Shown here: piece by piece, positions 3,241 through 17,412 of the stretch
How positions within the stretch are numbered: the stretch's first letter is position 1
How the letters are laid out: each line of letters opens with the position of its first letter
NCBI GenBank assembly: GCA_948471095.1
Contig: CAOKRG010000007.1
Location: 1 to 64,000, forward strand
Direction of reading: 5' to 3'
Length of the DNA stretch: 64,000 bases
DNA from: an uncultured Oscillospiraceae bacterium
Lineage (GTDB): Bacteria > Bacillota > Clostridia > Oscillospirales > Acutalibacteraceae
Program-made: the position numbers and the translations under genes
The notes under the pieces: model-generated
The model's database searches: none
The model's input: the letters and a program-made list of their open reading frames with translations, nothing else
Told to the model about the DNA's origin: nothing

Positions 3241-3280
3241 ACACAGCGTGTGGAGGGGTAGGAGTGGGGGGGACTACATC

Positions 3281-3307: not shown

Positions 3308-3413
3308 GCTCCATCCGGTCCTGAGATTCGATTACGGTAGCCCGCTCATTGAGTTTTCAGATCATTTCCAGGCAGACCTCGTCCTGCTCCAATTTTCCAA
3401 AATATGCCTCCTG

Positions 3414-4694
3414 TCATTTGCACCGCTCAGTCATAATAGACAATATCGTCTGGTCCGTCTGCCGCATTCCCTGCTGAGCTAAAAGGCCCACATTCGCGAT
3501 CGTATCATCCACGCCTTTGGTCACGATGCCGTCGCCGCTTTTGAATTCCTGGTGGTTTTTATACATAGAGTAGCCCAATATCCCCGCGTCTACACTGGCG
3601 GCAATCTTGGCGGCGCAGGAGGGCTTTGCCCCATCGCAGATGGTTCCGCTGATGATAGCCACTGCGTTGACGATGGTGTGCGCTATGGCCTCGTAGCCGC
3701 CGTCCAGCAGATAGGCGATACCGGCCCCAGCCCCGACCCCGGCGCTGACCGCGCCACAGTAGGCCGAGAGACGGCCTATGCCGCTTTTCTGGTGGATGGT
3801 CACCAGGTCGCTGACCAGCAGCGCCCGGTACAGCTTTTCCTGGTTTGCCCCCAGGAACCTTGCGTACCGGACCACCGGCACGGAGGCTGTTATCCCCTGG
3901 TTGCCGGAGCCGGAGAGGATCACCACCGGTAGCTCGCAGCCGCTCATCCGGGCGTCGCTCCCTGCGGCGGCCCAGGCTTTCGCCTCGGTCTTGATGTCCC
4001 CGGGGTACTCCGCCAGCAGGACGGAGCCAATATTGGCGCCCCAGTTATTTTTCAGCCCTTCCGCCGCGATAGCCGTGTTGCAGTCGATCTGCCGCTGTAG
4101 TAGCGGTGCGATATCCCCAAGCTCCACCGTGTTCGCGAACTCCAGAATATCCGCCACATTCAGCACGCTCTTGTCCGTCAGGCTGTCCTCGGCGGAATCT
4201 GTCACCGGCTTTTCCAACAGGACTTCGCCGTTCTTTTCTTCTCTGACGATATTGCTGTGGCTGTTGGCGATATGTACACAGGCGGAATGCTCCCCAGCCC
4301 AGCCGGTGAGCCGGATGTCCAGCATCCGGGGGGTGTCGGCACAGACTATCTCAATGGGGGTATCCTGACAATAGGCCGCGATTGCCCCATGCCGGTCCGA
4401 CGGAACGGTGGAGATGACCTGCAGGATTTTCTCAGCGTCCCCCGCCGCTATCCCCGCCGCAATAGCCGCGGAGATGCCCTTTAGCCCTCCGGTGTTGGGG
4501 ACGACCACGCTTTTCACATTTTTGATGATATTGCCAGAGACCTCCGCCCGTATCCTTTCCGGCCATACTCCCAGGATATCCCGGAGCCGGGCAGCGGCAT
4601 AGGCTAGGGCGATGGGCTCCGTACAGCCTGTGGCGGGGACCAGTTCTTCCCTTAAAATGGACAGATACGCCTTTGTGGTTTCGGTAGTCAACAT
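3414..4694 (-). CDS. cyuA: L-cysteine desulfidase (UPF0597/CyuA family)
   Basis: The family splits L-cysteine into hydrogen sulfide, ammonia and pyruvate in the cytoplasm using an oxygen-sensitive [4Fe-4S] cluster. The protein has 426 residues, normal for the family. The N-terminal motif VPATGCTEPIALAYAAA carries Cys24, and the C-terminal motif SGTICDGAKPSCAAK carries Cys353 and Cys360; cysteines in these two regions are the ones expected to hold the cluster. Glycine-rich loops and the phrase SGSGNQGITASVPV are also family-typical. The ATG at 4694 has a clear GGAGG site 8 bp upstream. The gene is the last of a minus-strand set after the M16 protease and the YitT protein (15-bp gap to the latter). 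In this element it sits beside thioredoxin-type genes, which suggests a thiol theme. In other bacteria a cyuP permease usually accompanies it; none is seen here. Confidence 0.8.
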   Translation of the reverse strand: MLTTETTKAYLSILREELVPATGCTEPIALAYAAARLRDILGVWPERIRAEVSGNIIKNVKSVVVPNTGGLKGISAAIAAGIAAGDAEKILQVISTVPSDRHGAIAAYCQDTPIEIVCADTPRMLDIRLTGWAGEHSACVHIANSHSNIVREEKNGEVLLEKPVTDSAEDSLTDKSVLNVADILEFANTVELGDIAPLLQRQIDCNTAIAAEGLKNNWGANIGSVLLAEYPGDIKTEAKAWAAAGSDARMSGCELPVVILSGSGNQGITASVPVVRYARFLGANQEKLYRALLVSDLVTIHQKSGIGRLSAYCGAVSAGVGAGAGIAYLLDGGYEAIAHTIVNAVAIISGTICDGAKPSCAAKIAASVDAGILGYSMYKNHQEFKSGDGIVTKGVDDTIANVGLLAQQGMRQTDQTILSIMTERCK

Positions 4695-4709
4695 AAATTT
4701 TACCTCCTT

Positions 4710-5609
4710 TTATCGGGCGGGGATTTCGGGCGGCTCCACATAGACCCGTTCGCTGGAAAAGCCCTGCCCTCGAACCTCCTTGATCTGTGTGATGGTCAGG
4801 AACGCGTTAGGGTCAACGGATTGTATCAGCGACTGTGCGGCATAGAGCTTCCTGGGCGGGATCACGCACAGCACACCGCGCTGAGGTGACCTTGTCCTGC
4901 CGGTTTCGATTTGAACCATAGTGATACCGGCCTGCAGCTTTGTCAGGCATTTCTGCCGTATCTCCTCGTACCGTCTGGAAATCACAAAGAGCTGTATCTG
5001 TGACTGCCCTAAAAGCATCACCTTGTCCAGCACAATCGTCTCTACCACCAGCAACACAACGCCGTATAGGATTTGCTCCGGGTCAGAGAACACAGCCTGC
5101 GCGCCCATGATGACAATATCCGTCAGGTAGACCGCCACGGAGACCGGGATATGTGTCCACTTATGCAGTACCAGATTGACCACATCCGTGCCGCCGGTGG
5201 AGGAGCCCACCCGCATCACCAGCCCCACGGCTATCCCCACCAGCCCGCCGCCCAGCAGGGCCGACAGCAACGGGTCGGCAGTCAGTCCTTCGATACCCGG
5301 CACCCTCTGGGCCGCGCCCAGGAAGATGGGGTAGAGCAAGGAGCTGGCCACCGTAGCCAAAACGAACCTCCATCCCAGCACCGCCCAGCCCAGCGCCAGG
5401 GCCAGCAGGTTCACGCATAAAACAATCAGGGCGGTGTCCAGCGGGATGAACCTTGCCAGAACCACCCCAACGCCCGTGGCCCCGCCCATGATGACGCCGC
5501 TGGGCAGGATGAATGCCGCCACGGCGAACCCCAGCAGCATATTCCCGGCTATGATCGCAAAGCCAACCTCCGACGCTTTTTTCAAGCGCTTCCGATCAAG
5601 CCTTCTCAT
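4710..5609 (-). CDS. YitT family membrane protein (DUF161 plus DUF2179)
   Basis: YitT proteins are inner-membrane proteins of unsettled function, often proposed as transporters. This one has 299 residues. The first about 200 form several hydrophobic helices with the family-typical glycine-rich segments (for example SGVIMGGATGVGVVLARF and VMRVGSSTGGTDVV). The soluble tail after about residue 205 matches the DUF2179 pattern, with TKLQAGITMVQIETG and LCVIPPRKLYAA. The start ATG follows the M16 gene stop by a single base and has no good Shine-Dalgarno sequence, so translation is probably coupled. It is carried in the cargo between the protease and the cysteine desulfidase. The family call is firm; the substrate is unknown. 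Confidence 0.85.
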   Translation of the reverse strand: MRRLDRKRLKKASEVGFAIIAGNMLLGFAVAAFILPSGVIMGGATGVGVVLARFIPLDTALIVLCVNLLALALGWAVLGWRFVLATVASSLLYPIFLGAAQRVPGIEGLTADPLLSALLGGGLVGIAVGLVMRVGSSTGGTDVVNLVLHKWTHIPVSVAVYLTDIVIMGAQAVFSDPEQILYGVVLLVVETIVLDKVMLLGQSQIQLFVISRRYEEIRQKCLTKLQAGITMVQIETGRTRSPQRGVLCVIPPRKLYAAQSLIQSVDPNAFLTITQIKEVRGQGFSSERVYVEPPEIPAR

Positions 5610-5610
5610 A

Positions 5611-8502
5611 TCAGAGTACCACTATATTGTCCAGCCAACCGGCACAGGCGTCCACCTGCTGTCGGGAGCCGAGGACGCAGATGCTGCCCCGCGCTGTCAG
5701 GTCCTCCACGGGGCCGGCCAGAGCTTTCAGATCTTCCGGCACGGCGGCGAGCATCTCCCGGCGGACGCGGCACCGGTCCTCGTGGCTAATCTGCCGCCAG
5801 TAGAGAGCGTCTGCCATCCGGCCCTTCATGCGGGCTGTCAGAAGCGGGTCGGACTCCGCCGCCGCGCCGGTGATCATGCCGGTCAGGTCTATGTCAATGC
5901 CTCTCAGAAAGTCCGAGGAGGCACGGTAGCAGTCCAGCGTCCGGGCGGCGCTGGGGTCGCGGAAGGAGTAGAATCCAGCAAAGCCTGTGTCACGCAAAAC
6001 CATTCCCGTGCCGTAGGCCCCGCCTTGGACCCGTACCGTGTTCCAAAGGTGGGCAAGGGAGACGGTACGTCCCATGACCTTCGCCGAGCCGCTTCCGGTT
6101 CCCTGGAAAACGCCGCCCAGAGCCGCGTATGATACGCCGGATGGGATCACAAACCCCTCCCGACGGGGTTCCCAGGGCAGAACGGCCCCCGTGCAGGGCA
6201 GGGCAAAGCTGCCCTGCGGCAGGCTGGACGAAAGCAGTCGGGTGACAGTTTTGGCAGAAGCTTCATTCCCGGCAGTGACGCTGACCGTCATGCGTGCGCG
6301 GCAGAAAATGCGCTGGGCCAGAGATATAAGATCCTGCGCCAAAGCAGGAAAGCGGGCGGGGAAGTTCTGCTCCAGTTCCGTGAGCCACCGCAGGAAGGTG
6401 ATGCCCGACGCCTGCTCCTGGACGGCACCCTCGGCGGTTGAGCAGGCCAGGACCCTGGACATGGCGGCGCTGTGTCCTGCCGTGACCATCTGCTCCGCCA
6501 TCGCCGCCCGCCGCTGGCGCAGGAAGGTGAGCGCCTGCTGGGAGTTCTCCCACTGCTGTCCAACTAAAAGCTCTGTCAGGAGGGACAGGGCTTTTTCCAG
6601 TTTCGCGTCCAGAATACTGCAGGAAACGCACAGGAATGTCCGGCAGCGGTCCGGGGCGTTTTGCCGCCCATACGCTTCTACCGTGAACCAGATATTCCCG
6701 AACAGGGAGCGCATCTCCCGGCTCAGGTCTGCCAGACTGTACTTAGCCGTATCCAGACAGCCGAACAACTGGGCCATAAAGGATGCCTTAGCCAGTTCCT
6801 CTGGGGACAAGTCATCCAGCGCGAAATAGAGATTGCAATAGGTGATACCATTGGTGGGCAGCCGATGGCGGAGGAGCGCTATGCTGTCGGCGGTTTCTTC
6901 CTCTATAGGCAGCTTTTCCGGCTCCGCGGGGATCTGGTCAAGGCGAAGCCTGGGGATGGACGCCAGCTGCTCCGGCGTGTCCGGCATGTTCTGCCAGGCG
7001 GCGATAGCTTCCTGGAAGCGATGGACGCCGGCGGCTTCCTCGGTTCCCCAGCTGGATCGGACGGCACTGAGTCGAGCTGTCTCCTGGGCCTGGCGCTCCT
7101 GGCCTATGGTGTGGGAGGGCAGTGCAAGGATTCGGCAGTGATGGGGGTTCTCTAAAATGAGCTGCTTTAGAAGCTCCTCAAAATAGCCTGTCCCGCACTT
7201 GTCCCGCAAGCCGTCAAAGAGCGTACCGACGCTGAGATTTGCCGCAGGGTCGCCGCCGTAGAGCCAGCTCTCCATCACCTGGAAGCAGAGCATAAGCCCC
7301 TGGGGCATCTGCCCATAGTCCCGCTGCCGGGCCTCAAACTCCAGATTGTCCAGCGCCGCCAGGATCCGCCGGTGATCCAGCCCCTCCCGGGACAGCCGCT
7401 CCAGCTCATCCCGGAGGGCGGAGGACACCTCCTCGGACTTGTCCTCGGCAATGTCCCTGGCCTCCAGCAGGAGCCAGGGCTGCTGTACGCCGTCGTGAAG
7501 CTCTAAGCGGACGTCCTGAGCCAGGCCGCTTTCCAGAAGACGCCGCTTCAGGGGGGCCTGGTTGTCCCCACATAGTACATCCGATAAGGCTTGCAGCGCC
7601 ATTAACGTCTCCCTGTCCCGGAAGGTGCAGACAGCGTACCCATCTGCCAGCCGGGCGCGTCCCTCCAAGGATTCCTGTGCGGACAGCTCATAGCGTATAG
7701 CGGACAGGCCCGCCTCAACAGGCTTTTGCAGAGGTATCCCTTCCGGCGTGGGACAGCGCTCGTATGCACAAAGGTATTCACTGTCCAAAATCTCAAGAAC
7801 CTGCGCGATATCTACGCTGCCGTCCAGGAATATATAGGAATTTGATGGGTGGTAGAGACGGCTGTGGGCGGCAGCGAAGGCTTCGTAGGTCAGCTCCGGG
7901 ATATGCGCCGGGTCACCCCCAAAAACATAGCGGTAGCAGGTATCCGGGAACAGGCGGCGGGCCGCTTCCCGCTCCAGAAGGGCGTCCGGCGAGGAGAAGG
8001 CCCCCTTCATCTCGTTATACACCACGCCCTTGACGGAGAGCGCGCCGTCTTCGCCCAGCTCGTAGTGCCAGCCCTCCTGGCCGAAAATCTCCGGCTTGGA
8101 GTGTAGCAGCGGGTGCAGTACCGCGTCCATGTAGACCCGCAGGAGATTGATAAAATCCTGGCCGTTCCGGCTGGATACAGGGTAGACAGTTCTGTCAGGG
8201 AAGGTCATGGCGTTGAGGAAGGTGTTCATGGAGCTTTTCATCAGCTCCACAAAGGGCTCCTTCACCGGGTAGCGTTTTGAGCCGCACAGGACTGAGTGCT
8301 CCAGGATATGGAACACGCCTGTGTCGTCCCAGGGCTGGGTCTGGAAGGCGATGGCGAAGGTCTTGTTTTCCTCCGCCCGCTCCAGCCATACCAGCCGGGC
8401 GCCGGACTTTTGGTGCTCCATTTGCCAGAGGTCCGCCTCCAGCTCGTCAACACGTTGTTGATCTAGGACAATAAAACCTGAAAGGATACTGTTCTTTTCC
8501 AT
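5611..8502 (-). CDS. M16C family zinc metalloprotease (PreP/insulinase-like)
   Basis: This large peptidase of 963 residues matches the length of the presequence-protease branch of family M16, which degrades short unfolded peptides inside a closed chamber of four domains. The inverted zinc motif HILEH lies at residues 65-69 and supplies two zinc-binding histidines and the catalytic glutamate. It is followed by the family phrase LCGSKRYPVKEPFVEL and, near residue 165, YNEMKGAFSSPD, which carries the third zinc ligand (Glu). The C-terminal half has the usual degenerate M16 repeat. No signal peptide is seen, so it is cytoplasmic. It starts at an ATG with AAGGAGG upstream and a recognisable promoter at 8556-8584, and heads the minus-strand operon with yitT and cyuA. 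Next to an ABC exporter and small secreted proteins it may clear or mature peptides; that part is inference. Confidence 0.85.
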   Translation of the reverse strand: MEKNSILSGFIVLDQQRVDELEADLWQMEHQKSGARLVWLERAEENKTFAIAFQTQPWDDTGVFHILEHSVLCGSKRYPVKEPFVELMKSSMNTFLNAMTFPDRTVYPVSSRNGQDFINLLRVYMDAVLHPLLHSKPEIFGQEGWHYELGEDGALSVKGVVYNEMKGAFSSPDALLEREAARRLFPDTCYRYVFGGDPAHIPELTYEAFAAAHSRLYHPSNSYIFLDGSVDIAQVLEILDSEYLCAYERCPTPEGIPLQKPVEAGLSAIRYELSAQESLEGRARLADGYAVCTFRDRETLMALQALSDVLCGDNQAPLKRRLLESGLAQDVRLELHDGVQQPWLLLEARDIAEDKSEEVSSALRDELERLSREGLDHRRILAALDNLEFEARQRDYGQMPQGLMLCFQVMESWLYGGDPAANLSVGTLFDGLRDKCGTGYFEELLKQLILENPHHCRILALPSHTIGQERQAQETARLSAVRSSWGTEEAAGVHRFQEAIAAWQNMPDTPEQLASIPRLRLDQIPAEPEKLPIEEETADSIALLRHRLPTNGITYCNLYFALDDLSPEELAKASFMAQLFGCLDTAKYSLADLSREMRSLFGNIWFTVEAYGRQNAPDRCRTFLCVSCSILDAKLEKALSLLTELLVGQQWENSQQALTFLRQRRAAMAEQMVTAGHSAAMSRVLACSTAEGAVQEQASGITFLRWLTELEQNFPARFPALAQDLISLAQRIFCRARMTVSVTAGNEASAKTVTRLLSSSLPQGSFALPCTGAVLPWEPRREGFVIPSGVSYAALGGVFQGTGSGSAKVMGRTVSLAHLWNTVRVQGGAYGTGMVLRDTGFAGFYSFRDPSAARTLDCYRASSDFLRGIDIDLTGMITGAAAESDPLLTARMKGRMADALYWRQISHEDRCRVRREMLAAVPEDLKALAGPVEDLTARGSICVLGSRQQVDACAGWLDNIVVL

Positions 8503-8555
8503 GATAGCCTCCTTGTAGTGAGTTCCTTTTTGTTCGATCCGGCTTAGGTGCCAAT

Positions 8556-8584
8556 ATTATAGGAGCTTTTCCCCTCTGGCGCAA
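8556..8584 (-). promoter_or_regulatory. Sigma-A-type promoter of the M16-yitT-cyuA operon
   Basis: On the minus strand TTGCGC (8579-8584) and TATAAT (8556-8561) are separated by 17 bp, about 55 bp before the protease start. The rest of the divergent intergenic region (8585-8793) must also hold a plus-strand promoter for the flavoprotein operon, but I could not single out a good one. Confidence 0.6.
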
Positions 8585-8793
8585 GGTGCTATGCTTATTC
8601 TGTTCATTTTCCCGACCATTCTGTCCCATTCGTCAAAACTCCTTGCTTTTTCATACCGGCTTTGGACTGGGACAGAGCGTCCGCTATCTGTACAGAATAG
8701 ACCATTTCCGGGGCGGAATGAGCAAGTAGTATTGATTTTTTCGGAAAAAATGATATGGTTGCATCATAGAAAAAGCTGGGAGGGGTATGTCAA

Positions 8794-9654
8794 ATGTACG
8801 ACCTGCTTATTATCGGCAGCGGGCCCGCCGGTGTTTCCGCCGCGCTGAGCGCAAAGGCGCGGGGCTTGGATTTCCTGTGGTTCGGCTCCAGACAGTTGAG
8901 CCCTAAAATTGCGAAAGCTGAGCGCGTTATGAACTATCCGGGGCTTCCGGCGGTCACCGGGCCAGAGATGCGGGAAGCCTTTTTACATCAAGTAGACAGC
9001 CTGGGCATTTCTGTTTTAGAGGAACGGGTCAATTCCATCTACGGCATGGGCGGCTATTATACCGCCGTGGTCAACGACAAGATGTATGACGGCAGGACTG
9101 TCATCCTGGCCCCGGGGGTATCTAACAGCCGTGAGATACCCGGCGAGAGCCGGTTGCTGGGGAAGGGGGTCAGCTATTGCGCCACCTGTGATGGGGAGCT
9201 GTACCGGGGCAAACGTATAGCGGTGGTCTGCACGGACCCGTCCTTGGAGGAAGAAGTGGAGTTTCTGGCCGGGCTGGCTTCGGACGTGTTCCTGTGTACC
9301 AGCTATAAGGATTGCGGCGTCCAGCGGGACAATGTGCGGCATACGGTGGGCTATCCCGCGGAAATTTTGGGTGAGGACAGGGCCTCCGGCCTGATCTGCG
9401 GCGGAGAGACAGTAGCGGCGGACGGAGTCTTCTGTCTGCGTTCCTGCGTGGCACCGTCGGCGCTGCTGCCGGGACTGGCGGCAGAGGGCGGGCACATCCA
9501 GGTGGACCGGGGACAGCGGACCAACCTGCTGGGCTGTTTTGCCGCCGGGGACTGCACGGGACGGCCCTATCAGTACGCAAAAGCGGTGGGCGAGGGCAAC
9601 GTGGCTCTGCACAGCGTGGTGGAATACCTGAAAGAAATGGAGGCGTGTGAATGA
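8794..9654 (+). CDS. Thioredoxin-reductase-like flavoprotein without NADPH motif
   Basis: The protein has 286 residues with the FAD-binding GSGPAGVSAAL motif near the N terminus (residues 8-18), the redox CATC motif (Cys129, Cys132) followed by DG as in thioredoxin reductases, and the C-terminal FAD motif LLGCFAAGDCTGRPYQYAKA. In NADPH-dependent reductases the strand after the CxxC is followed by GGGNSA and later an HRR-type patch. Here the equivalent stretch is IAVVCTDPSLEEE, with no glycine-rich loop. The protein is also about 25 residues shorter than standard TrxB. It may therefore take electrons from ferredoxin or another donor, as described for flavin-type reductases in clostridia, or be an inactive relative. 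It overlaps the next gene by ATGA and lies two genes before a thioredoxin. The ribosome binding site GGGAGGGG is good. Confidence 0.75.
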   Translation: MYDLLIIGSGPAGVSAALSAKARGLDFLWFGSRQLSPKIAKAERVMNYPGLPAVTGPEMREAFLHQVDSLGISVLEERVNSIYGMGGYYTAVVNDKMYDGRTVILAPGVSNSREIPGESRLLGKGVSYCATCDGELYRGKRIAVVCTDPSLEEEVEFLAGLASDVFLCTSYKDCGVQRDNVRHTVGYPAEILGEDRASGLICGGETVAADGVFCLRSCVAPSALLPGLAAEGGHIQVDRGQRTNLLGCFAAGDCTGRPYQYAKAVGEGNVALHSVVEYLKEMEACE

Positions 9655-10571
9655 AATCAAGAATATTGAAGGTAAAGGACTACCGGGAGGTGGACGTGGA
9701 GCCTCTGCTCAGGCCCTTTGTGCCGGATGAGACAGCGCTGGAGGCGGAGCTGAGGCGGCTGACTAACCCATATATCCGCTGGGAACCCGGCGAGGAGGTT
9801 TCTGCCGGGGACCAGGTGGTGTGCCGGTTGCTTTCGGACTGCCCCCGGTACAATAAGGAGAAGGTTCGCTTCGTGGCAGGGAGCGGGATGTTTCAAAGGG
9901 AACTGGAAAATCTCTCCATCGGCATGAGGGTGGGCGAGACCCGGGAGGCCGGCCTGCCGGAGGGGAAGGTGTCCCTTACGCTGGCGGGGGTGATGAACCG
10001 CGTGGCCCCGGAACCCAGTGATGAGATGGTGGAGAAGCTGGAGCTGGACGGCGTGCATACTGTGGCGGAATACCGGGCCTACCTGCTGGAGCAGCAGCGG
10101 GAGGCCGCCTTCGGGCAGGACTCCTTTGAAGCGCTGAAGAAACTCACCCGGGAGGTGATAAGCGGCTCGGAGTTTATCCTATACAGGGAGGACTGGGCCG
10201 AAGCTATCAACCGGGAGCTGGACCGCTGCCGGACGCTGTGCCGCCAGGAGGGCATGGTCCTGGAGGAAATGACGCCGGAGCAGTTCCAGGGCCGCATCCC
10301 AGTGAAAAGCTACCATGAGCTGGTAGCCATGCTCCAATATGATGGTTGGGACAATCTCTGCCGCTATCTGCTGGGCCGCCGGTACGCCGAAACGGACAGT
10401 TTCCACTCCGGCGAGGCGGAGTACGAGGCGTTTATCGCGGACTATGCAAAAACCTGGCGCGTCTCAGAGGAAGGCGCCAGGGAGGCCAACCCGTTTGAGA
10501 ACTTCATTTTTAACGAATACACCGGGCACGCCTATACAGTGCTGAAAAACTATATCAGAGAATTTTATTAA
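9651..10571 (+). CDS. Trigger factor-like protein lacking the ribosome-binding domain
   Basis: The protein has 306 residues. The N-terminal part (residues 27-65: VPDETALEAELRRL, then IRWEPGEEVSAGDQV) corresponds to the end of the ribosome-binding domain and entry to the FKBP-like domain of trigger factor. Residues 65-125 resemble a shortened FKBP domain (GSGMFQRELENLSIGMRVGE). The remainder is helical like the trigger factor chaperone arm (EPSDEMVEKLELDGVHTVAEYR). The first about 110 residues, including the ribosome-contact loop, are missing, so it cannot dock on ribosomes in the usual way. It is translationally coupled to the flavoprotein before it (ATGA) and 14 bp from the thioredoxin after it. 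It probably acts as a folding helper for specific clients of this cassette, with or without prolyl isomerase activity. Confidence 0.65.
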   Translation: MKSRILKVKDYREVDVEPLLRPFVPDETALEAELRRLTNPYIRWEPGEEVSAGDQVVCRLLSDCPRYNKEKVRFVAGSGMFQRELENLSIGMRVGETREAGLPEGKVSLTLAGVMNRVAPEPSDEMVEKLELDGVHTVAEYRAYLLEQQREAAFGQDSFEALKKLTREVISGSEFILYREDWAEAINRELDRCRTLCRQEGMVLEEMTPEQFQGRIPVKSYHELVAMLQYDGWDNLCRYLLGRRYAETDSFHSGEAEYEAFIADYAKTWRVSEEGAREANPFENFIFNEYTGHAYTVLKNYIREFY

Positions 10572-10585
10572 GGGAGGAACCCATC

Positions 10586-10903
10586 ATGGCGATTCAAAAC
10601 GCGGACAAGACCAATTTCAAAGAACTGATCAGAGAGGACTTTGTGATTGCTGACTTCTACGGCACGACCTGCGTCCCCTGCAAGCTGTTTTCCAAGATAC
10701 TGGAGGACATTGAGGCGGAGATACCATTCCTGAACATCGTCAAGCTCAATACCACCGATAACCCGGAGCTGGCAGAGGAGTACGGGATAACCGCCGTGCC
10801 CACCGTCCACTTCTATAAGGACGGACAGCTGGTGGCAAGCCATGTGGGTGTTATGCAGCCCCAGGCGGTGAAGGAGGTTATCGCCCAGCATATGTATGCA
10901 TAA
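10586..10903 (+). CDS. Thioredoxin family protein with CVPC active site
   Basis: This is a 105-residue thioredoxin fold. The active-site phrase FYGTTCVPCK places the cysteines at residues 29 and 32; the canonical sequence is WCGPC, so both the Trp and Gly are replaced, which should shift redox potential and partner choice. The cis-proline element is present (GITAVPTVHFYKDG, residues 69-82). No signal peptide, so cytoplasmic. It follows the trigger factor-like gene by 14 bp with AAGGGAGG upstream. The nearby flavoprotein with a CATC motif is the obvious reducing partner. A terminator follows at 10929-10955. Confidence 0.9.
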   Translation: MAIQNADKTNFKELIREDFVIADFYGTTCVPCKLFSKILEDIEAEIPFLNIVKLNTTDNPELAEEYGITAVPTVHFYKDGQLVASHVGVMQPQAVKEVIAQHMYA

Positions 10904-10928
10904 AGCCGGACAGATTAAGCGGCTTTTC

Positions 10929-10955
10929 GGGCAAAATCGACATCTGCCCTTTTTT
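10929..10955 (+). terminator. Rho-independent terminator after thioredoxin gene
   Basis: GGGCA (10929-10933) pairs with TGCCC (10945-10949) and a run of six T follows. The stem is short but placed 26 bp after the stop codon. Confidence 0.55.
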
Positions 10956-10972
10956 CGATAATCCAAATATGC

Positions 10973-10978
10973 TATAAT
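10973..10978 (+). promoter_or_regulatory. Extended -10 promoter for the lipoprotein gene
   Basis: TATAAT preceded by TGC (extended -10, TGnTATAAT), 31 bp before the lipoprotein start. No clear -35 is visible, as expected for extended -10 promoters. It starts a new unit after the thioredoxin terminator. Confidence 0.5.
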
Positions 10979-11008
10979 CCATTCACCAATAAAAGGAGGC
11001 TCTGTCCC

Positions 11009-11488
11009 ATGAAAAAGACTGTAAAACGCATCATCTGCTCTCTGCTTGCACTGCTTTTAGTGTGCGGTCTCACCGCCTGCGGCGGAACAAAGAGCGTGGA
11101 CCCGAAAACCTGCACATACGATGAGATGGTGGACTATCTTACCGCCAAGGGCTACATTTCCAAGGATGCCGCTGCGGTGGACATGCTCACTACCGAGGGC
11201 TATATTACGGACAACACCGGCGGTGATATCCCCTATGCGCCATTTGCAGATAAAGCACATGACTATGACGGGCTATGGCTGATGTGGTGGGACTCTGCTA
11301 CCCCATCTGAGGCGTACACCAACTGTTTCAAGAACCTTGCCATGAACGAGGGTACTATCGTCTACATGGGCGGCGCGGCTGTTTTGGAGACAGCCGCCTA
11401 CAACGGCAATTTTGCCATCGCCTTTGGGGAGGGCTACGCCCAAAAGGACGCTGTCACAGCGGACTTTCAGGCGCTTTCCCAGAAATAA
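11009..11488 (+). CDS. Small lipoprotein, unknown function, paralogue of 15087-15566
   Basis: The protein has 159 residues with a lipoprotein signal: positively charged MKKTVKR, a hydrophobic core, and the lipobox LTAC with Cys27. The mature part has the pattern TYDEMVDYLTAKGYI, then WWDS, then EGTIVYMGGAAVL and NGNFAIAFGEGY. The same order of motifs occurs in the product of 15087-15566 (MDEVLAELAAQGLI, WWDLEN, DGIIDLYGSGHIL, NGPFAMWLDLYEG), so the two are paralogues. They bracket an ABC exporter pair, suggesting a surface role tied to the exporter, such as substrate capture, sensing or immunity. I know no characterised member of this family. A strong hairpin at 11497-11540 lies between this gene and the transporter. 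Confidence 0.75.
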   Translation: MKKTVKRIICSLLALLLVCGLTACGGTKSVDPKTCTYDEMVDYLTAKGYISKDAAAVDMLTTEGYITDNTGGDIPYAPFADKAHDYDGLWLMWWDSATPSEAYTNCFKNLAMNEGTIVYMGGAAVLETAAYNGNFAIAFGEGYAQKDAVTADFQALSQK

Positions 11489-11496
11489 GGACATAG

Positions 11497-11540
11497 AAAC
11501 GCCCCTACCCTATCCTATATGGGATAGGGTAGGGGCGTTT
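11497..11540. terminator. Long perfect hairpin between lipoprotein and ABC genes
   Basis: CGCCCCTACCCTATCC pairs perfectly with its complement around a TATA loop, flanked by AAA and TTT. It begins 9 bp after the lipoprotein stop and 34 bp before the transporter start. It may end most lipoprotein transcripts and let a fraction read into the transporter; no other promoter for the ABC genes is obvious. Confidence 0.75.
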
Positions 11541-11573
11541 CGCTGAAATGCACATAAGAGGAAGGAGAAAACC

Positions 11574-13313
11574 ATGGAAACAAACGCGATTTTCCGAAAA
11601 AATTACGGCAGCTTCCGCCGCTTCTTCTCCATGCTGGGCAAGGCAAATCTGCCCTATCTGTGGATCATCGGCTACTTGGTGGCAAGCGCCGTCATCGCCA
11701 ATGTGGGCGTCAGCTCTACTGAATACAGCGCCGCCCTCTTTGCGGGGAATGTGGGCCTGACCGCTGTGGTGCTGCCCTATCTTTTTTATCAGATCCTCTC
11801 CCTGATTCTCAGCTCCATCTCTGGGCTCATCAATAACCTCTGCACAGCCCGCATGGACAGGAATCTGCGGCGTATGGTCTGGCGCAAGACGGTAAGTCTG
11901 CCCCTGCGGTTCTATGAGAATAACAACCCCAAGGAGCTGCTCAGCCGTATCACCACCGACATCTCCAGCATCAGCAATCTGGTCATGAAGGTTTTCCTCC
12001 CCATCTTCACCACGGCCTATGCCAGCTTTGTCATCCTCCAGAAGGTCTCCAGCTATGACGGGGCGCTGATGTGGTCTTTAGTGGCGGCGCTGCCGGTGAA
12101 TATCCTCATCAGCTTTATTCTGGGCCGCCTGCAATTTGGCGTACAGGACCTTATCAACCGGCGCAATGCCGAGCTGACCGCCACTGTAGCGGAGCGTACC
12201 AATAACCTTATGCTGATAAAATCTATGAGCACCGAGGCAAAGGAGGCCGCTGCCGGAGGGGAGCGGATGAAGGCCAGCTACCGGGCCGCCGGGATGAATA
12301 TCTGGATCACCGGCACTGCCATCCCCATTAGGGCCATTGCCAGTGTCCTGCAGACTATCGTCATCATCCTGGTGGGCAGGGGCTACTATGCCTCCGGCGC
12401 GCTGAGCCTGACGGAGTGGATAGCCTATTACGGCTTTGCCATTCAACTGACCAATATCCTCAGCGCATACTGCGGATACTGGACCTCCTTCAAAAGCGCC
12501 CAGGGCGCGGTAGATCGGGTGAGCGAGATCATGGCCGAGCCTTCAGAAAATTTGAACGCCGGAAGCACCATGGAGTCACCGGCGGGAGGCATCCGCTTTG
12601 AGAAGGTGGATTTCTCCTTCGGGAGCGAGCCCCTTTTCCAGGGCTTAGACCTGGACATCCCCGCCGGGAGAATCACCGCCGTGGTAGGTCCTTCCGGGTC
12701 GGGGAAGACCACCCTGCTGAACCTGATCGACCGCCTTTACCCGCTGAACGGCGGCTTGATACAGATAGGCGGAAAGGACACCTCGGACTACTCCCTGACC
12801 AGCTTCCGACGCGCCCTGGGATACGTGACCCAGGAGAGCGTCATGTACGCGGGCACCATCCGGGACAACCTGCTCCACGGCCTGGGGCGCACGCCGTCGG
12901 ACGAGGAGCTGGACGAGGCCTGCGCCGCCGTGGGCATCCTTGACTATGTCCGCCGCCAGTCCCTGGGCTACGACGCCCCGGTAGGGGAAAGCGGGGCCAG
13001 TCTCTCCGGCGGGCAGCGGCAGCGTTTCTCTGTGGCCCGGGCCCTGTTGAAAAAGCCGGACTGCCTGCTGCTGGACGAGGCCACCGCCGCCATGGACATC
13101 GGCGGCAAGGCGGGCGTTTGGGCCAGCATCCGGCAGGTGATGGCGGGTAAAACCGTGGTCTATGTGGCCCACGACGCCCAGACCATACGCAACGCGGACT
13201 ACCTGATCGTCCTTCGGGACGGACAGGTGGAGGCCGCCGGGGAGCGGGAGGACGTTATGGCTTCCAATTCCTATTGTCGGGAAATGATGGAAAACGGAGA
13301 GGAGGGCCGCTGA
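11574..13313 (+). CDS. ABC exporter half-transporter (TMD-NBD), subunit 1
   Basis: The protein has 579 residues. About residues 1-310 are an exporter-type membrane domain with six hydrophobic segments. The nucleotide-binding domain follows, with Walker A GPSGSGKTTLL, Q-loop YVTQESVMYAG, signature LSGGQRQRFSVARALL, Walker B CLLLDEATAAMD and H-loop VYVAHD. All catalytic residues including the Walker B glutamate are present. There is no C39 peptidase domain, so leader cleavage during export is not indicated. The next gene starts 1 bp after its stop, which points to a heterodimer. The substrate is unknown. Nearby thiol genes make a CydDC-like thiol exporter worth considering, and the small exported proteins make a peptide exporter possible. 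Confidence 0.88.
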   Translation: METNAIFRKNYGSFRRFFSMLGKANLPYLWIIGYLVASAVIANVGVSSTEYSAALFAGNVGLTAVVLPYLFYQILSLILSSISGLINNLCTARMDRNLRRMVWRKTVSLPLRFYENNNPKELLSRITTDISSISNLVMKVFLPIFTTAYASFVILQKVSSYDGALMWSLVAALPVNILISFILGRLQFGVQDLINRRNAELTATVAERTNNLMLIKSMSTEAKEAAAGGERMKASYRAAGMNIWITGTAIPIRAIASVLQTIVIILVGRGYYASGALSLTEWIAYYGFAIQLTNILSAYCGYWTSFKSAQGAVDRVSEIMAEPSENLNAGSTMESPAGGIRFEKVDFSFGSEPLFQGLDLDIPAGRITAVVGPSGSGKTTLLNLIDRLYPLNGGLIQIGGKDTSDYSLTSFRRALGYVTQESVMYAGTIRDNLLHGLGRTPSDEELDEACAAVGILDYVRRQSLGYDAPVGESGASLSGGQRQRFSVARALLKKPDCLLLDEATAAMDIGGKAGVWASIRQVMAGKTVVYVAHDAQTIRNADYLIVLRDGQVEAAGEREDVMASNSYCREMMENGEEGR

Positions 13314-13314
13314 T

Positions 13315-15090
13315 ATGAAGCGCAACGGAAAAGACGGCAGTCAACAGCAAAAGCAGAAATTCTCTTTCCGCTCCTATATCTCGTTTTACACCCGGTTCCC
13401 CATTCCATGGTGGCTGTTTATCGCGTCCCTGGTCTTCGGCCTTGTCAATACCGAGGTGGTGCTGGCTATCTCCAAGTATGTGATCCAGATCAACAAGGGC
13501 GAGCTCTACAACGGCGTAATTATCGGCTACTCCCTGTTGACCGTGCTGAACGCCATAATAGCCATGTTCAGCAACCTCTGTGGGGAGTATGGCATCCAGA
13601 AAGTCACACTTAGGGCCAGGATGCTGCTGTGGAACAAGATACTCCATCTGCCAATGCGGGAGGTGGAGCGCCGCCAGCCCTCGTCCCTCATTTCCGGCGT
13701 TGTGAACGATATCACACAGGCCAGCGCGGTGATACATATGATATTCTCTACGGTGGCCTCGATCTATGGCTTTATCCGCTGCTGCGTGGAGATGGCCCGG
13801 TTCAACGCGAAGCTTTCCGCCTATATGCTGCTGCTTGTCCCTCTGGCTGTTGGCGTGTTCGCCCTGGTGGGACAGCTGCAGTACCGTATGATGCTGCGGC
13901 GGTATGAGAGCCTGGGTGCCATGACGGAGTTCTTCTCCGAGCATATCTCTGCCGCCAAGCACGTGAAGGCCCAGGCCATGGAGGGGTTGGAAGCAGAGGA
14001 GGGCCTTCGGGCCATTGATGAGCGGTACAAAGCGGACATCTATTATGCCTTTATGGAGGTTCTGCAGGTGTTCTCCAATACGCTTTATACCTCCATCGGC
14101 AGCATTGCCATCGCCTTGTTCGGCTCTGACATGATCCGCAAGGGCCAGATGCCTGATACCGGCATCAATGACTTTACCACCTATAAGGGTCGGGTGGACC
14201 AGTACCAGGCTGAGGTGCTGACCCATTACCAGACCCTAAAGGGCACCCAGGGTGCCCTGCAGTATGTGGGCGTCCTCCTGGATGGGCCGGAGGAGGACCC
14301 GGACGCCGGGTACGACCTGCCGGAGGGCTGGGCGAAGGAGGACATCGTGCTGGAACGGGTGAGCTTTGGTTACGACCCACGCCAGCCGGTGCTCCACGAC
14401 CTGAGCCTTACCATCCCCGCCGGGATAACCACTGCCATTATTGGTAACAACGGCTGCGGCAAGTCCACCCTGCTCAAGCTGCTCCAGGGCATATATCTGC
14501 CGGACAGCGGCCGGGTATGGCTGGGGGAGTCCGCGGTGGACAAGGTGAAGCTGTCCCAGCTGCGTCGGCGCTTTGGCTGTATCTTCCAGCATAACCCCTT
14601 GTTTTCCGGCTCCGTTCGTGATAACATAGCCTATGGAGAAAAGGGCGAAGTGTCGGATGAGGCTGTGGCCGGGGCCGCAAGGCTTGCGGACGCGGACGGC
14701 TTTATCAGCCAGCTGCCAGAAGGGTATGACTCTGATGTGGGCATGGGCGGGGCACTGCTCTCCGGCGGGCAGCGCCAGCGGGTGGCAATCGCCAGGACGC
14801 TGCTGTCCGACCCGGAGTATCTCCTTATGGACGAGGCAGGGGCCAGTCTGGACCATAAGAGCGACATGACCATCTTCCGCGCCGTCAGGGAACATATGAA
14901 GGGTCGGACGATCGTGGTGGTGGCCCATGATATGCGCACGGTGATGGAGGCGGATCATATCATCGTCCTCAACAGCGGCTCCCTGGAGGCTGCTGGCACC
15001 CACGAGGAACTGCTGAAAACCAGCCCGACTTACCGCGGTTATCTGGAGCTGCAGGGCTTTGCCCTGGCGGGAGAGGAGGCAGGACAATGA
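13315..15090 (+). CDS. ABC exporter half-transporter (TMD-NBD), subunit 2
   Basis: The protein has 591 residues, organised like subunit 1, with an N-terminal exporter membrane domain and a C-terminal NBD. Motifs: Walker A GNNGCGKSTLL, Q-loop CIFQHNPLF, signature LSGGQRQRVAIARTLL, Walker B YLLMDEAGASLD, H-loop VVVAHD. The site looks catalytically competent, so this pair does not show the one-dead-site pattern seen in the exporter at 55912-59574. It is tightly coupled on both sides: 1 bp after subunit 1, and its TGA overlaps the ATG of the exported protein gene. A positively charged, Gln-rich N terminus precedes the first membrane helix. Confidence 0.88.
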   Translation: MKRNGKDGSQQQKQKFSFRSYISFYTRFPIPWWLFIASLVFGLVNTEVVLAISKYVIQINKGELYNGVIIGYSLLTVLNAIIAMFSNLCGEYGIQKVTLRARMLLWNKILHLPMREVERRQPSSLISGVVNDITQASAVIHMIFSTVASIYGFIRCCVEMARFNAKLSAYMLLLVPLAVGVFALVGQLQYRMMLRRYESLGAMTEFFSEHISAAKHVKAQAMEGLEAEEGLRAIDERYKADIYYAFMEVLQVFSNTLYTSIGSIAIALFGSDMIRKGQMPDTGINDFTTYKGRVDQYQAEVLTHYQTLKGTQGALQYVGVLLDGPEEDPDAGYDLPEGWAKEDIVLERVSFGYDPRQPVLHDLSLTIPAGITTAIIGNNGCGKSTLLKLLQGIYLPDSGRVWLGESAVDKVKLSQLRRRFGCIFQHNPLFSGSVRDNIAYGEKGEVSDEAVAGAARLADADGFISQLPEGYDSDVGMGGALLSGGQRQRVAIARTLLSDPEYLLMDEAGASLDHKSDMTIFRAVREHMKGRTIVVVAHDMRTVMEADHIIVLNSGSLEAAGTHEELLKTSPTYRGYLELQGFALAGEEAGQ

Positions 15091-15566
15091 AACGCTTTAC
15101 GATTTTATTTTCCGTTCTTCTGGTGCTGGGCTTTGGCGGTGTGCTGGCCTATGTGGCGGCGTCACCGGAGTTTGTGCCGCCTGCGGCACTGATAGGCGAA
15201 GGGGAAGACCCTGACGCTCCCATCTGGGACATGACCATGGACGAGGTCCTGGCTGAATTGGCAGCCCAGGGGCTCATTGACGACCCGGCCTCCGCCATCT
15301 CTCTGTCAAGCGACGGCCTGTGTACCGATGCCCGCCAGGTCAGCGGCGCGGAATTTTACTGGTGGGACCTGGAGAACCTGAAAGAGGGCAGTCAGGAAGA
15401 AACTTCCTATAAGAGCCTGAAGTCAGACGGCATCATCGATCTCTATGGCTCCGGGCACATTTTGAGTTATGTTCACAACGGTCCCTTTGCGATGTGGCTG
15501 GACCTCTATGAGGGCGACCCGAGCGCGTTGGAGCAGGCGTTCAAGGATGTCGGACAGGCAGAGTAA
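15087..15566 (+). CDS. Small exported or membrane-anchored protein, paralogue of the lipoprotein
   Basis: The protein has 159 residues, the same length as the lipoprotein at 11009-11488. A short basic start (MKR) leads into a hydrophobic segment at residues 4-25, either an uncleaved anchor or a signal peptide. There is no lipobox cysteine, unlike the paralogue. The mature region repeats the motif order D-E-V-L-A-E-L, GLI, WWD, DGIIDLYG, NGPFAMW, EGD. It overlaps the preceding transporter gene (ATGA), so it is made together with it, and is 19 bp before the LytTR regulator. The function is unknown; membership of the export module is clear from context. Confidence 0.7.
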   Translation: MKRFTILFSVLLVLGFGGVLAYVAASPEFVPPAALIGEGEDPDAPIWDMTMDEVLAELAAQGLIDDPASAISLSSDGLCTDARQVSGAEFYWWDLENLKEGSQEETSYKSLKSDGIIDLYGSGHILSYVHNGPFAMWLDLYEGDPSALEQAFKDVGQAE

Positions 15567-15585
15567 AAACAGGGAGGAAACGGCG

Positions 15586-16350
15586 ATGGAGATGAAAGCT
15601 CTGCTGGTGGACAGCAACCAGCGTCTGCTGGGTGAGCTGACCGTTATGCTGCACGCGTTCCAGTGCTTCCGGGTGGTAGGAACGGCGCGGACATCAACGG
15701 AGGCCGTTGAATATGTCCAGTTCAATGATGTGGACGTGGTATTTGCCAGCCACCAGCCCGCTGATCCCCGCACTACCAGCGTGGGGGAGCATTTGTCCGC
15801 CGTTTTTGGGCAGAGCCATCCACATATCCAGGTGGTGGTCTATTCCGACTCGGAGGAGTGGGCTTTCAACGCTTTCCGCTGTCAGTGCGCCGGGTACCTG
15901 CTGACGCCTTTTGACCCCCTGACGCTCCAATCGCTGGTCAACAGGCTGAGCTATGTGTTCGACCTGCAGCAGGCCAAGCGGGAGGTGGCGAATCGCAGTA
16001 TCATGATCAAAACCCGAAACGGGTATCAGCTCACCCGCCTCAGTGATATTCTCTTCATCGAACGGAACAACCGCAAAAACAGCATCGTTACTACTGATGG
16101 GCAGGAAATAGCGCTGCTGGGATACACCATGAACCAGCTGGAAGAAATGCTGGAGGGCTGCGGGTTTTACCGCTGCTATCAGTCTTTCATCGTCAACCTC
16201 TCCCAGGTGGCGGCTGTCCGGGCGGACAATGAGGCGAAAAATTATACCATTCGTTTCAAAGGCTATGAGGGAGAGATTCTGCTCAGCCGGGAAAAATACG
16301 CGGAGCTGGTAACCCTTCTGAAGGGGCGGTACGCGAAGATCAATATCTGA
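15586..16350 (+). CDS. LytTR-type regulator with degenerate receiver domain
   Basis: The protein has 254 residues from the ATG at 15586, chosen because GGGAGG precedes it. Residues 1-125 are shaped like a response-regulator receiver and residues about 145-250 are a LytTR DNA-binding domain (SDILFIERNNRKNSIV, then FYRCYQSFIVNLSQV, then LSREKYAELVTLL). The receiver has lost its chemistry: the acidic pair is VDSN at residues 8-11, the phospho-acceptor position is Ser55 (FASHQP instead of FLDIQMP), and the conserved Lys is Thr107 (YLLTPF instead of YLLKPF). It cannot be phosphorylated in the usual manner and no histidine kinase lies nearby. It probably responds to a bound ligand or a protein partner, or is constitutive. 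It is last in the exporter operon and may autoregulate it. Confidence 0.85.
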   Translation: MEMKALLVDSNQRLLGELTVMLHAFQCFRVVGTARTSTEAVEYVQFNDVDVVFASHQPADPRTTSVGEHLSAVFGQSHPHIQVVVYSDSEEWAFNAFRCQCAGYLLTPFDPLTLQSLVNRLSYVFDLQQAKREVANRSIMIKTRNGYQLTRLSDILFIERNNRKNSIVTTDGQEIALLGYTMNQLEEMLEGCGFYRCYQSFIVNLSQVAAVRADNEAKNYTIRFKGYEGEILLSREKYAELVTLLKGRYAKINI

Positions 16351-16407
16351 TGCCACATCATAAATATAGTACGAAAAGGGGTATATTTACGCCAGTATGG
16401 GGATGAT

Positions 16408-16438
16408 TTTTGCGCCGCTAAGCAAAGAAGACGGTTTT
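16408..16438 (+). repeat. Cargo-flanking repeat, copy B
   Basis: TTTGCGCCGCTAAGCAAAG followed by AAGACGGTTTT. It shares its core with copies at 3281 and 20236, and its right flank GACGGTTTT with copy C. It lies between the regulator stop and the DUF6076 stop, at the inner border of the cargo. Confidence 0.65.
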
Positions 16439-16443
16439 CAAAA

Positions 16444-17412
16444 TCAGGAGTTGATTAGCCACTCCTTGAACTCCTCAAAAGACATTTTGCCTGCGGCACA
16501 CTCGTCACGCTTACCCTTTGCCGTGGCGCTCCAAGCATAGAACGCTCCGGGGCTTATCTTCCCGGCCTTTATCCAGTTAAAGCGTTTCTTGTACTCACGG
16601 CGATACTCCTTGAACAGCTCGTCCGAGTTTTTCTTCTCCGCCCAGCGCTTGACTGCGCCGACTTCTCTGCAAGTGTGCCCGTTCTCATCAACGGTCAAAT
16701 TGCAAAACTCCGCCGTGTTGCGTCGGGGAATAGCAAAATACTTGCCACAATATGAGCAGATACGCATACGCTGTTCCCGCTTGACGCACTCACGAATGGA
16801 AAACTCAACGAGGTCAGATAGGGAGGTTGGGTGCAACACCTCGGCAAAAGTACCGCTGCCGGTTCGCTCATAGGTAGTAAAGATTGGTCTGAACTGGTAG
16901 GCGTAGAGCGGTTCTCTTTTCTCTTTGTCCAGATACTCTTGCAACTTTTCACGAACAGGTTTCTTCTTTCCGTCATCGATGTCCAGGACATCTTCGAATA
17001 GGCGCATGATTTGTTTTTGCAGAGTGTCCAGGTCGCTGGGAATGTGCCGCAACTGCTTGTGCGGGAGAATCTCTTGAACATCGTCAGGATGGTGCTCCGC
17101 ATTGCGGAACCGTGACTGCCAGTCAAGACGCAGGAACTCAAAATAGATGTGTTTCTTCGCAAGCTCCTCCAAAGTACTCATCACAGCAGCCTGCGAATCA
17201 AAGTCGCGTTCCCGATAGAAATTCAGCAGGGCCTTGTCCATTTCCTTAAACAGACCTTCCATCGGCCAGATGTCCAAATAGGTAAACCGCAAGAGGCTTT
17301 CCAGAAATGGGAAGTCTTTTTCTTTTTTGTGCGAGCGCTCGAACGTCAAATCCTTGTAGACGAAATATTCGCGGCCATCTTCAAAGTAGGTGTAGAACAG
17401 GTAGTCAGCCAT
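16444..17412 (-). CDS. DUF6076-like protein with zinc-finger motif
   Basis: The protein has 322 residues and no signal peptide. A putative zinc site lies at about residues 220-250: CSYCGKYF, IPRRNTAEFCN and HTC supply four cysteines and a histidine. The same arrangement occurs in a family of proteins common on clostridial integrative elements and phages, annotated DUF6076. The rest is charged and helical. The ATG at 17412 has AAGGAG upstream. It is transcribed away from the excisionase gene with which it shares a 160-bp control region. Its role is unknown; a regulatory or nucleic-acid-binding role is plausible from the zinc finger and location. Confidence 0.6.
   Translation of the reverse strand: MADYLFYTYFEDGREYFVYKDLTFERSHKKEKDFPFLESLLRFTYLDIWPMEGLFKEMDKALLNFYRERDFDSQAAVMSTLEELAKKHIYFEFLRLDWQSRFRNAEHHPDDVQEILPHKQLRHIPSDLDTLQKQIMRLFEDVLDIDDGKKKPVREKLQEYLDKEKREPLYAYQFRPIFTTYERTGSGTFAEVLHPTSLSDLVEFSIRECVKREQRMRICSYCGKYFAIPRRNTAEFCNLTVDENGHTCREVGAVKRWAEKKNSDELFKEYRREYKKRFNWIKAGKISPGAFYAWSATAKGKRDECAAGKMSFEEFKEWLINS

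Follow-up and report, generated by a model that had tools for sequence, protein, structure and literature searches.

The eleven-gene cassette

The stretch of DNA analysed here, referred to as the window, comprises 64,000 nucleotides at the start of contig CAOKRG010000007.1 (C7) in the 2.5-Mb draft genome of an uncultured Oscillospiraceae bacterium (G000; G, C and L numbers denote genomes, contigs and loci, respectively). At positions 3414–16350 it carries a cassette of eleven genes, all present with open reading frames, which judged from their sequence conservation and joint occurrence very probably form a conserved gene module. An initial annotation made from the letters alone had named these genes and regarded them as a candidate mobile thiol-redox, folding and export cassette; the identities are confirmed by domain and PDB matches, and the features are as follows.

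3414–4694, minus strand: CyuA, L-cysteine desulfidase of the SDH_alpha family (PF03313, 1.2e-60)
4710–5609, minus strand: YitT + DUF2179 membrane protein (PF02588, PF10035), also present in G505 and G465
5611–8502, minus strand: M16C presequence-protease-like oligopeptidase (PF08367, PF22516; PDB 2fge, 6xos)
8794–9654, plus strand: FFTR-like flavin thioredoxin reductase with a CATC motif, second nucleotide-binding motif absent
9651–10571, plus strand: TigL, trigger-factor-like chaperone (TIGR00115 positions 106–380 only)
10586–10903, plus strand: thioredoxin (Trx) with a CVPC motif (PF00085)
11009–11488, plus strand: lipoprotein with an unnamed domain and an LTAC lipobox
11496–11541, plus strand: strong RNA hairpin between lipoprotein and ABC1 (z −8.6)
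11574–13313, plus strand: ABC1, ATP-binding cassette half-transporter
13315–15090, plus strand: ABC2, half-transporter
15087–15566, plus strand: exp, exported or membrane-anchored paralogue of the lipoprotein domain
15586–16350, plus strand: LytTR regulator with a degenerate receiver

While CyuA, YitT and M16C are encoded on the minus strand and the remaining eight genes on the plus strand, spacing is tight inside three groups, CyuA-YitT-M16C, FFTR-TigL-Trx and ABC1-ABC2-exp-LytTR. The tight overlaps reported in the initial annotation were found for FFTR/TigL and ABC2/exp (4 nt each), and several further gaps are short, with 1 nt for YitT/M16C and ABC1/ABC2, 14–15 nt for TigL/Trx and CyuA/YitT and 19 nt for exp/LytTR; other gaps are larger, i.e., 291 nt between the divergent M16C and FFTR genes, 105 nt between Trx and lipoprotein and 85 nt between lipoprotein and ABC1. 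Scans for promoters and terminators gave chance level only. In comparison with G151, the ratio of non-synonymous to synonymous substitution rates (dN/dS) of the eleven genes ranges from 0.062 (LytTR) to 0.162 (Trx), and because it is low in all of them the gene set appears to be more than a chance assembly.

Distribution of the module

A survey for co-occurrence revealed that the genes travel together and that the combination of thiol redox, folding and transport functions is a real gene set across genera, as the initial annotation had supposed: they cluster in six genera of the order and also in two metagenome-assembled genomes (MAGs) from rabbit gut, with varying order and flanks. The outcome that the initial annotation had named as its refutation was thus not obtained. 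TigL and the gene set proved rare: TigL was detected in 2/150 genomes of the family, and a five-row TigL profile matched 18 of 394 genomes of the order at E 1e-3. The gene set is present in seven of these 394 genomes (G000, G095, G505, G465, G375, G348 and G211), while 11 of the 18 loci, weak hits lacking a thioredoxin or ABC neighbour in short flanks of ~1.5 kb per side, were rejected. A scan of genome contigs yielded five loci, namely B35, B59, two rabbit MAG contigs and Scatolibacter rhodanostii. The following gene orders were read besides that of the window.

Scatolibacter (G095): TigL-Trx-CyuA-M16C-lipoprotein-ABC1-ABC2-exp-LytTR
G505 and G465: FFTR-YitT-TigL-Trx-ABC1-ABC2-exp-LytTR, with CyuA-M16C opposite (exp of G465 truncated, 108 aa)
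Rabbit locus L008: TigL-Trx-lipoprotein-ABC1-ABC2-exp-LytTR
G375: kinase-LytTR-ABC1-ABC2-TigL-Trx-two lipoproteins-M16C-CyuA-six-Cys protein
G348: ABC1-ABC2-TigL-Trx-lipoprotein
G211: ABC1-ABC2-TigL-Trx-six-Cys protein
Rabbit genomes G917 (5.8 Mb, possibly a mixed bin) and G918: more copies, some with two or three tandem TigL genes and thioredoxins

By gene content, the core consists of the ABC1-ABC2 pair and one to three TigL genes, usually with thioredoxins. A reductase, either of the flavin type or of a tentative six-Cys type, is putatively encoded nearby in many copies, and several genera add one or two predicted surface proteins from a single domain family, LytTR, M16C and CyuA. In other orders no system was recognised: a class search gave 199/391 hits, of which 30 loci were read with ~1.5 kb on each side, more than 160 hits lying outside this screen, and none of the 28 screened loci besides G000 and G211 had both thioredoxin and ABC neighbours, a lone ABC hit occurring at two of them. 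Likewise, 46 pattern matches in viral contigs included no relative, plasmids gave no match and PHROGs matched none of four proteins. Directly downstream of the Scatolibacter cassette lies a gene for a GGDEF protein (L010:3894-4985).

The chaperone gene adjoins the ABC pair in 15/15 systems whose pair was read. In a phylogenetic tree, the ABC1 and ABC2 rows of the 15 systems part at one split (support 99/96) with a near-identical branching order on each side, which is consistent with an ancestral ABC pair inherited as a unit. In a tree with five other ABC proteins as outgroups, 24 system ABC rows stand together, separate from these (99/98); the ABC1 rows form a clade there (97/92), and no such grouping is recovered for the ABC2 rows. 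Close relatives of ABC2 were found in 4/29 genomes of the window genus.

Moreover, M16C and CyuA co-occur with the core at the level of whole genomes. M16C is found in 11 of the 12 system genomes (all but G348, with all hits at least as good as 1e-108) vs 11/115 others, and CyuA likewise in 11 of the 12 (all at 1e-105 or better) vs 20/115; in the full order sample, which includes G000 and G211, the counts are 13/117 and 22/117, the 115-genome baselines being the 117 genomes minus these two. Thresholds were 1e-40 and 1e-20 for the system genomes and 1e-60 for the baselines, and the system hits also pass 1e-60. Counted by seven lineages (window genus; Scatolibacter; G505 with G465; G375; G348; G211; rabbit MAGs), M16C and CyuA each occur in 6/7 (p 2e-5 for M16C and 3e-4 for CyuA), and among the three lineages without linkage M16C occurs in two (p 0.03); these p values are rough, since G375 and G348 belong to one genus yet count as two lineages and the baseline is uncollapsed. 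In G211 and both rabbit MAGs, M16C and CyuA are present, not beside the core copies read.

The system copies of M16C do not form one clade: those of the window genus are sister to the standalone copy on G000:C3 (100/100), the G375 copy groups with the non-system proteins of G285 and G185 (100/99), and the position of Scatolibacter is unsure. The CyuA tree was unresolved, with long branches. The M16C tree suggests that the protease became attached to the set more than once, and repeated attachment would be difficult to account for unless the genes functioned together. The standalone pair in the window genome (L091:9706-14008 on G000:C3) is a second CyuA-M16C pair, with 76% and 62% identity.

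Predicted functions and the direction of transport

The thioredoxin retains its CxxC motif in 11/11 copies checked. The accompanying FFTR-like protein is present in the window genus, G505 and G465; it has the thioredoxin-reductase fold with a CxxC motif and no NAD(P)H motif, and covers the model of the NADPH enzyme, TIGR01292, over its full length while scoring under its cut-off. Its best PDB matches are 6gnc, 6gna and 6gnd at 2.7e-77 to 3.4e-71, ahead by 35 orders of magnitude of the next thioredoxin reductase (4zn0, 2.3e-36). These three we take to be FFTR-type structures, a label that reportedly goes back to Buey et al. in 2018. A different candidate reductase is the six-Cys protein of 66 aa, found in G375, G211 and the rabbit loci L155, L157, L158 and L161, whose six invariant Cys residues form three CxC pairs and whose gene lies directly 3' of the Trx gene or, in G375 alone, 3' of CyuA. 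Tentatively, it may be a ferredoxin-thioredoxin reductase. No locus read contains both an FFTR-like and a six-Cys gene. Because two different candidate reductases are encoded near the same thioredoxin, this thioredoxin is more plausibly reducing than oxidising, and from homology the gene set does not look built for disulfide formation. The two candidates would also make a route from ferredoxin to thioredoxin directly testable.

The nearest published arrangement that we found, likened by description, would be the trxA2-trxB4 region of Clostridioides difficile with its ABC transporter, in which, according to the accessible part of the source, a reductase without NAD(P)H motif also stands in an operon with a thioredoxin; M16C, CyuA and a pair of surface proteins are not named there, and the term 'trigger factor' is absent from the main text (PMC10880999). 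Redox proteins of this kind could also belong to a general oxidative-stress repair set in which the transporter is incidental. We give this reading very little credence, since it leaves the tandem TigL-Trx pairs, the paired surface proteins and CyuA unexplained and copies without any nearby reductase exist.

The match of TigL to the trigger factor model TIGR00115 covers the central and C-terminal portions and starts at position 106, for which reason TigL is regarded as lacking the ribosome-binding domain. It shares with trigger factor only these parts, and searches with the A4 profile pick up proteins as long as trigger factors. A separate tig gene scores over the cut-off in 12/12 system genomes (for G918 the match spans positions 1-322 only), whereas none of the 29 trigger-factor hits besides the main tig gene in these genomes reaches the family cut-off. 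NF045969, the model of a trigger factor-related chaperone, is matched in addition by some of the rabbit TigL proteins. Hits of the TigL profile to retinol-binding proteins in the PDB (E 0.004) were taken as chance. In L155, L157 and L161, a single ABC pair is followed by TigL-Trx pairs in tandem, whose TigL copies have diverged from each other. As a side observation, G505 (C49:64894-65757) and G465 (C23:175159-176094) encode another protein that matches trigger factor from position 108 or 66, under the cut-off (163 and 153 bits), and no core genes were detected in the 19 kb read around these, save one ABC-ATPase hit each.

CyuA has L-cysteine desulfidases as its sole PDB matches (9he0 at 5.8e-27, and 9fsl), and four Cys residues at identical spacing together with one near the N-terminus are kept in 10/10 copies. 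M16C contains the zinc motif HILEH (HxxEH), and no signal peptide is seen in its sequence. M16C/PreP enzymes enclose short unfolded peptides.

As the initial annotation had stated, the two small exported proteins are paralogous: lipoprotein and exp belong to a single domain family (hhalign E 1.8e-10; BLASTP 3e-6), the number of domain copies in exp being one, two or three depending on the genus. Each has its own N-terminal export signal, and no Cys is conserved besides the lipobox. A Pfam search with this domain gave nothing credible (E up to 1). The lipoproteins of G375 and G348 match the lipoprotein group (7.7e-7), but not the exp group alone (E 0.065). Distant lipoproteins in G000:C43, G101, G054, G103 and G125 were discarded as candidates, no gene of the set lying beside them. 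The hairpin between lipoprotein and ABC1 recurs in 4/4 loci folded (z −8.6, −6.7, −6.2 and −3.7), as would be expected if the lipoprotein were made in excess over the transporter.

The LytTR regulator most likely starts at 15586, after AGGGAGG, and not at 15469. Its receiver scores 22.4 bits against a cut-off of 30.2 and has no acceptor Asp at the expected position. Within the window genus, and in G505, G465, L008 and Scatolibacter, LytTR likewise has no acceptor; receivers over the cut-off were found in G375, L155 and L161, with an adjoining GHKL kinase gene in G375 and L155. The phosphorylation-dead state proposed in the initial annotation therefore appears to apply to part of the LytTR family. 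A search for LytTR sites in the upstream regions found nothing common across genera. No LytTR was found in the loci L156 and L162; a YheO-like PAS/HTH_22 protein is encoded near the core there (L156:6242-6889 and L162:6489-7118, the Pfam assignment having been made on the L156 protein).

A lipoprotein, an ABC pair and LytTR, with a GHKL kinase adjoining LytTR in G375 and rabbit L155, are also what immunity against antimicrobial peptides might comprise, the lipoprotein binding the peptide, the ABC pair expelling it from the membrane and the cytosolic parts repairing damage. LanI together with LanFEG confers immunity by such extrusion of peptide from the membrane. This explanation seems quite improbable to us, as it gives no clear role to the tandem TigL-Trx pairs, the neighbouring reductases, M16C and CyuA; PADLOC matched 0/9 proteins, a weak test of immunity since its library covers anti-phage defence.

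ABC1 and ABC2 have intact Walker A, LSGGQ and Walker B motifs, and they match ABC_membrane, ABC_tran and generic ATPase models only, i.e., a C39 peptidase domain is absent. Such a domain is frequent, though not universal, on exporters of bacteriocins and other ribosomally synthesised and post-translationally modified peptides. The suggestion in the initial annotation of thiol export with sulfide control, comparable to CydDC, draws on the presence of CyuA and thioredoxin in the set and on matches to the CydD/CydC models TIGR02857 and TIGR02868. With 200 and 199 bits for ABC1 and 212 and 177 for ABC2, these matches are far under the cut-offs of 435 and 329, at least eight other ABC models score higher, and small thiols need neither a trigger-factor-like chaperone nor M16C, so that export of thiols or cysteine is very improbable.

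A peptide client encoded beside the core was sought among 257 small open reading frames near 14 core loci. The one family with a credible between-genus match is the six-Cys protein, and because it is the sole such family no dedicated export substrate is visible; no cysteine-peptide precursor shared between genera was found in this sample, while small-ORF matches confined to the window genus exist. One further small open reading frame of 47 aa (8586-8729), without a clear ribosome site, is 87% identical to G151 and has no match in other genera.

These data bear on the main rival, namely export of a reduced, unfolded client encoded elsewhere or represented by lipoprotein or exp itself, for which TigL would serve as holdase, the thioredoxin would keep Cys residues reduced, the ABC pair would secrete and M16C would clear unexported chains. 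The exporter fold of the ABC pair, the chaperone beside it in all 15 systems, the ABC2-exp overlap and the hairpin 3' of the lipoprotein gene are in its favour. On the other side, no client gene was found beside the core, lipoprotein and exp carry their own export signals and lack conserved Cys residues besides the lipobox, the core copies of G211 and six rabbit loci show neither protein, and the genome-wide co-occurrence of M16C and CyuA would be left unexplained. In sublancin and glycocin operons, an ABC transporter and a thioredoxin-fold protein accompany a precursor peptide in which disulfides are formed; no such precursor was found near the cores here. The export and folding of a cysteine-containing peptide, as put forward in the initial annotation, is therefore not borne out, and export of this general kind appears rather unlikely. 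If it were true, it would represent a new secretion pathway that has a holdase and a reductant of its own.

Import is tentatively favoured because the predicted functions form a coherent cytosolic line (reduce, hold, cut, remove cysteine), no substrate gene is visible and surface domains are present. In the pathway proposed here, the surface proteins would capture disulfide-containing peptides outside the cell, and the ABC heterodimer, despite its exporter fold, would act as importer of the captured peptides. Electrons would flow from ferredoxin via the reductase to the thioredoxin, which would reduce the disulfides of the polypeptide client while TigL would keep it unfolded in the cytosol. 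The M16C chamber would then digest the reduced, unfolded peptides, and CyuA would convert the freed cysteine to pyruvate, ammonia and sulfide. LytTR might control the set, via the GHKL kinase where one adjoins and free of phosphorylation in the window genus. The pathway as a whole, from the uptake of disulfide-containing peptides through their reduction and unfolding to their digestion, is plausible, and we advance it tentatively.

There are precedents for parts of this logic. The accessory genes of YbtPQ and IrtAB differ from the set described here, and the Sap permease complex is of another transporter type. The type IV exporter fold can serve import, as is reported for YbtPQ (PMC10967856) and IrtAB (PMC10246721); the substrates there are siderophores, while a peptide is proposed here. 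Sap of Haemophilus is reported to import antimicrobial peptides that are degraded in the cytoplasm (PMC3207918), which resembles capture outside, ABC import and cytoplasmic peptide digestion as suggested here, although Sap has the periplasmic binding protein SapA and the present set has exporter-fold half-transporters, thioredoxin and chaperone.

Several findings weigh against import and digestion of disulfide peptides. ABC proteins of exporter fold are mostly exporters, and the listed PDB matches of ABC2 comprise ABCB-type transporters, an a-factor exporter and BmrA; a hairpin located behind an early gene is also compatible with an operon for peptide export. Lipoprotein and exp were not detected in G211, L155, L156, L157, L158, L161 and L162, with the G375/G348 proteins included as queries. 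G348 has the core and the lipoprotein, but neither M16C nor CyuA genome-wide, and CyuA and M16C are neighbours without the system in two (G000:C3 and G245) of nine loci read, which represent 9/16 of the other M16C matches in the order sample. The rabbit TigL copy of L160 has no Trx or ABC gene beside it, and that of L153 has no core genes beside it, but lies at a contig end. As for the reductases, none was found in the Scatolibacter, L008 and G348 loci, nor in L156 and L162, and the six-Cys protein matched PF02943 (ferredoxin-thioredoxin reductase catalytic chain) for one of six members only, with 20.1 bits against a cut-off of 22, and had no ferredoxin-thioredoxin reductase match in the PDB. 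Its CxC spacing differs from the textbook spacing of this enzyme.

A more specific, ferredoxin-driven version of the import pathway, in which gut bacteria would import disulfide-bonded peptides such as host defensins via the exporter-fold ABC pair, reduce and unfold them with the private thioredoxin and TigL and digest them for carbon, nitrogen and sulfide, with tandem TigL-Trx pairs conferring different client specificities and the genes spread on a mobile element, is distinctly unlikely. In general, import would provide a new reductive route to eat or disarm disulfide peptides in the gut. Apart from the surface domain, the predicted proteins belong to or resemble known families, and it is their combination that we rate as apparently new in kind. 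A gene cluster of trigger factor with thioredoxin and an ABC transporter (or LytTR) was not found in full-text literature, mostly without subscription journals, nor did we find a system in which an ABC heterodimer is combined with a thioredoxin reduction chain of its own and with a trigger factor lacking the ribosome-binding domain. The set thereby gives the unnamed surface domain and the ribosome-free trigger factor a concrete context.

The carrier element

The eleven genes sit inside a predicted integrative element of 18.6 kb, presumably mobilizable, whose further features are listed below.

3036–3116, strand not assigned: left att-like repeat, a copy of the tRNA-Met 3' end with downstream hairpin, 88% to 21579–21659
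3285–3305, plus strand: 21-nt repeat TTTGCGCCGCTAAACAAAGAA at the left cassette edge, one mismatch to the copy at 16409
16409–16429, plus strand: 21-nt repeat at the right cassette edge
16444–17412, minus strand: element backbone, DUF6076 (same place in 6/6 other elements read)
17576–18147, plus strand: element backbone, HTH_17 and HTH_36 proteins
18469–18876, plus strand: element backbone, small protein ahead of the relaxase (present in 6/6 other elements read)
18879–20228, plus strand: MobL relaxase (PF18555, 2.5e-29)
20360–21505, plus strand: tyrosine integrase (PF00589, 7.4e-29)
21579–21659, strand not assigned: right att-like repeat, within the 3' part of tRNA-Met 21614–21690 on the minus strand

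The element is bounded by an 81-nt direct repeat, both copies of which carry the tRNA-Met 3' end. Window positions 3035-21659 form a single 18.6-kb block at 96.2% to G152, and 3071-21758 align to G165 at 94.5%; the common block ends near the att-like repeats, and the tRNA is intact in G165. In G151 the cassette is found at 90-92%, with the backbone reduced to remnants around it. A relaxase, an integrase, att repeats and a block common to different species are thus all present, as is typical of integrative mobilizable elements, which supports the mobility claimed in the initial annotation. The MobL relaxase was matched in 12/29 genomes of the genus (E 1e-60), with at least 81% identity in 10 of these. 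The cassette differs in G+C (54-63%) from the backbone to its right (46-52%).

Six further elements with the same backbone have different cargo behind DUF6076, of four types: a MATE pump with an APH-family kinase by Pfam (L150:7724-9986), a different ABC pair in three elements, a putative sugar kinase (by reading of the sequence) in one and a set with a putative lipoprotein in another. This indicates that the element serves as a carrier whose cargo slot is exchangeable, the cassette being one such load. The 21-nt repeat, which flanks the cassette in the window, G152, G165 and G151 (up to 2 mismatches) and has a third copy at 20239-20259 ahead of the integrase, may mark the site of cargo exchange; in the six other elements a copy with up to 4 mismatches adjoins DUF6076 in 6/6 and lies near the far cargo end in three (L147, L150 and L151). 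The mobile element was accordingly ruled out as part of the system, and no element genes were seen beside the gene set in the loci read of Scatolibacter, L008, G505, G465, G375 and G348.

That the same backbone carries unrelated loads, and that CyuA-M16C is also found alone, might suggest that the eleven genes are random or loosely accreted cargo. Considering the conservation of the ABC pair and gene set across genera, the co-occurrence and the low dN/dS, this is hardly credible, and the survey contradicts it. To the left of the left att-like repeat, part of a second element seemingly abuts it (window 1-3036), including an open reading frame without Pfam match (95-1873) and a HerA/TrwB-like gene (1870-2556), and the att-like copies in G152 suggest tandem stacking of elements at the tRNA-Met site.

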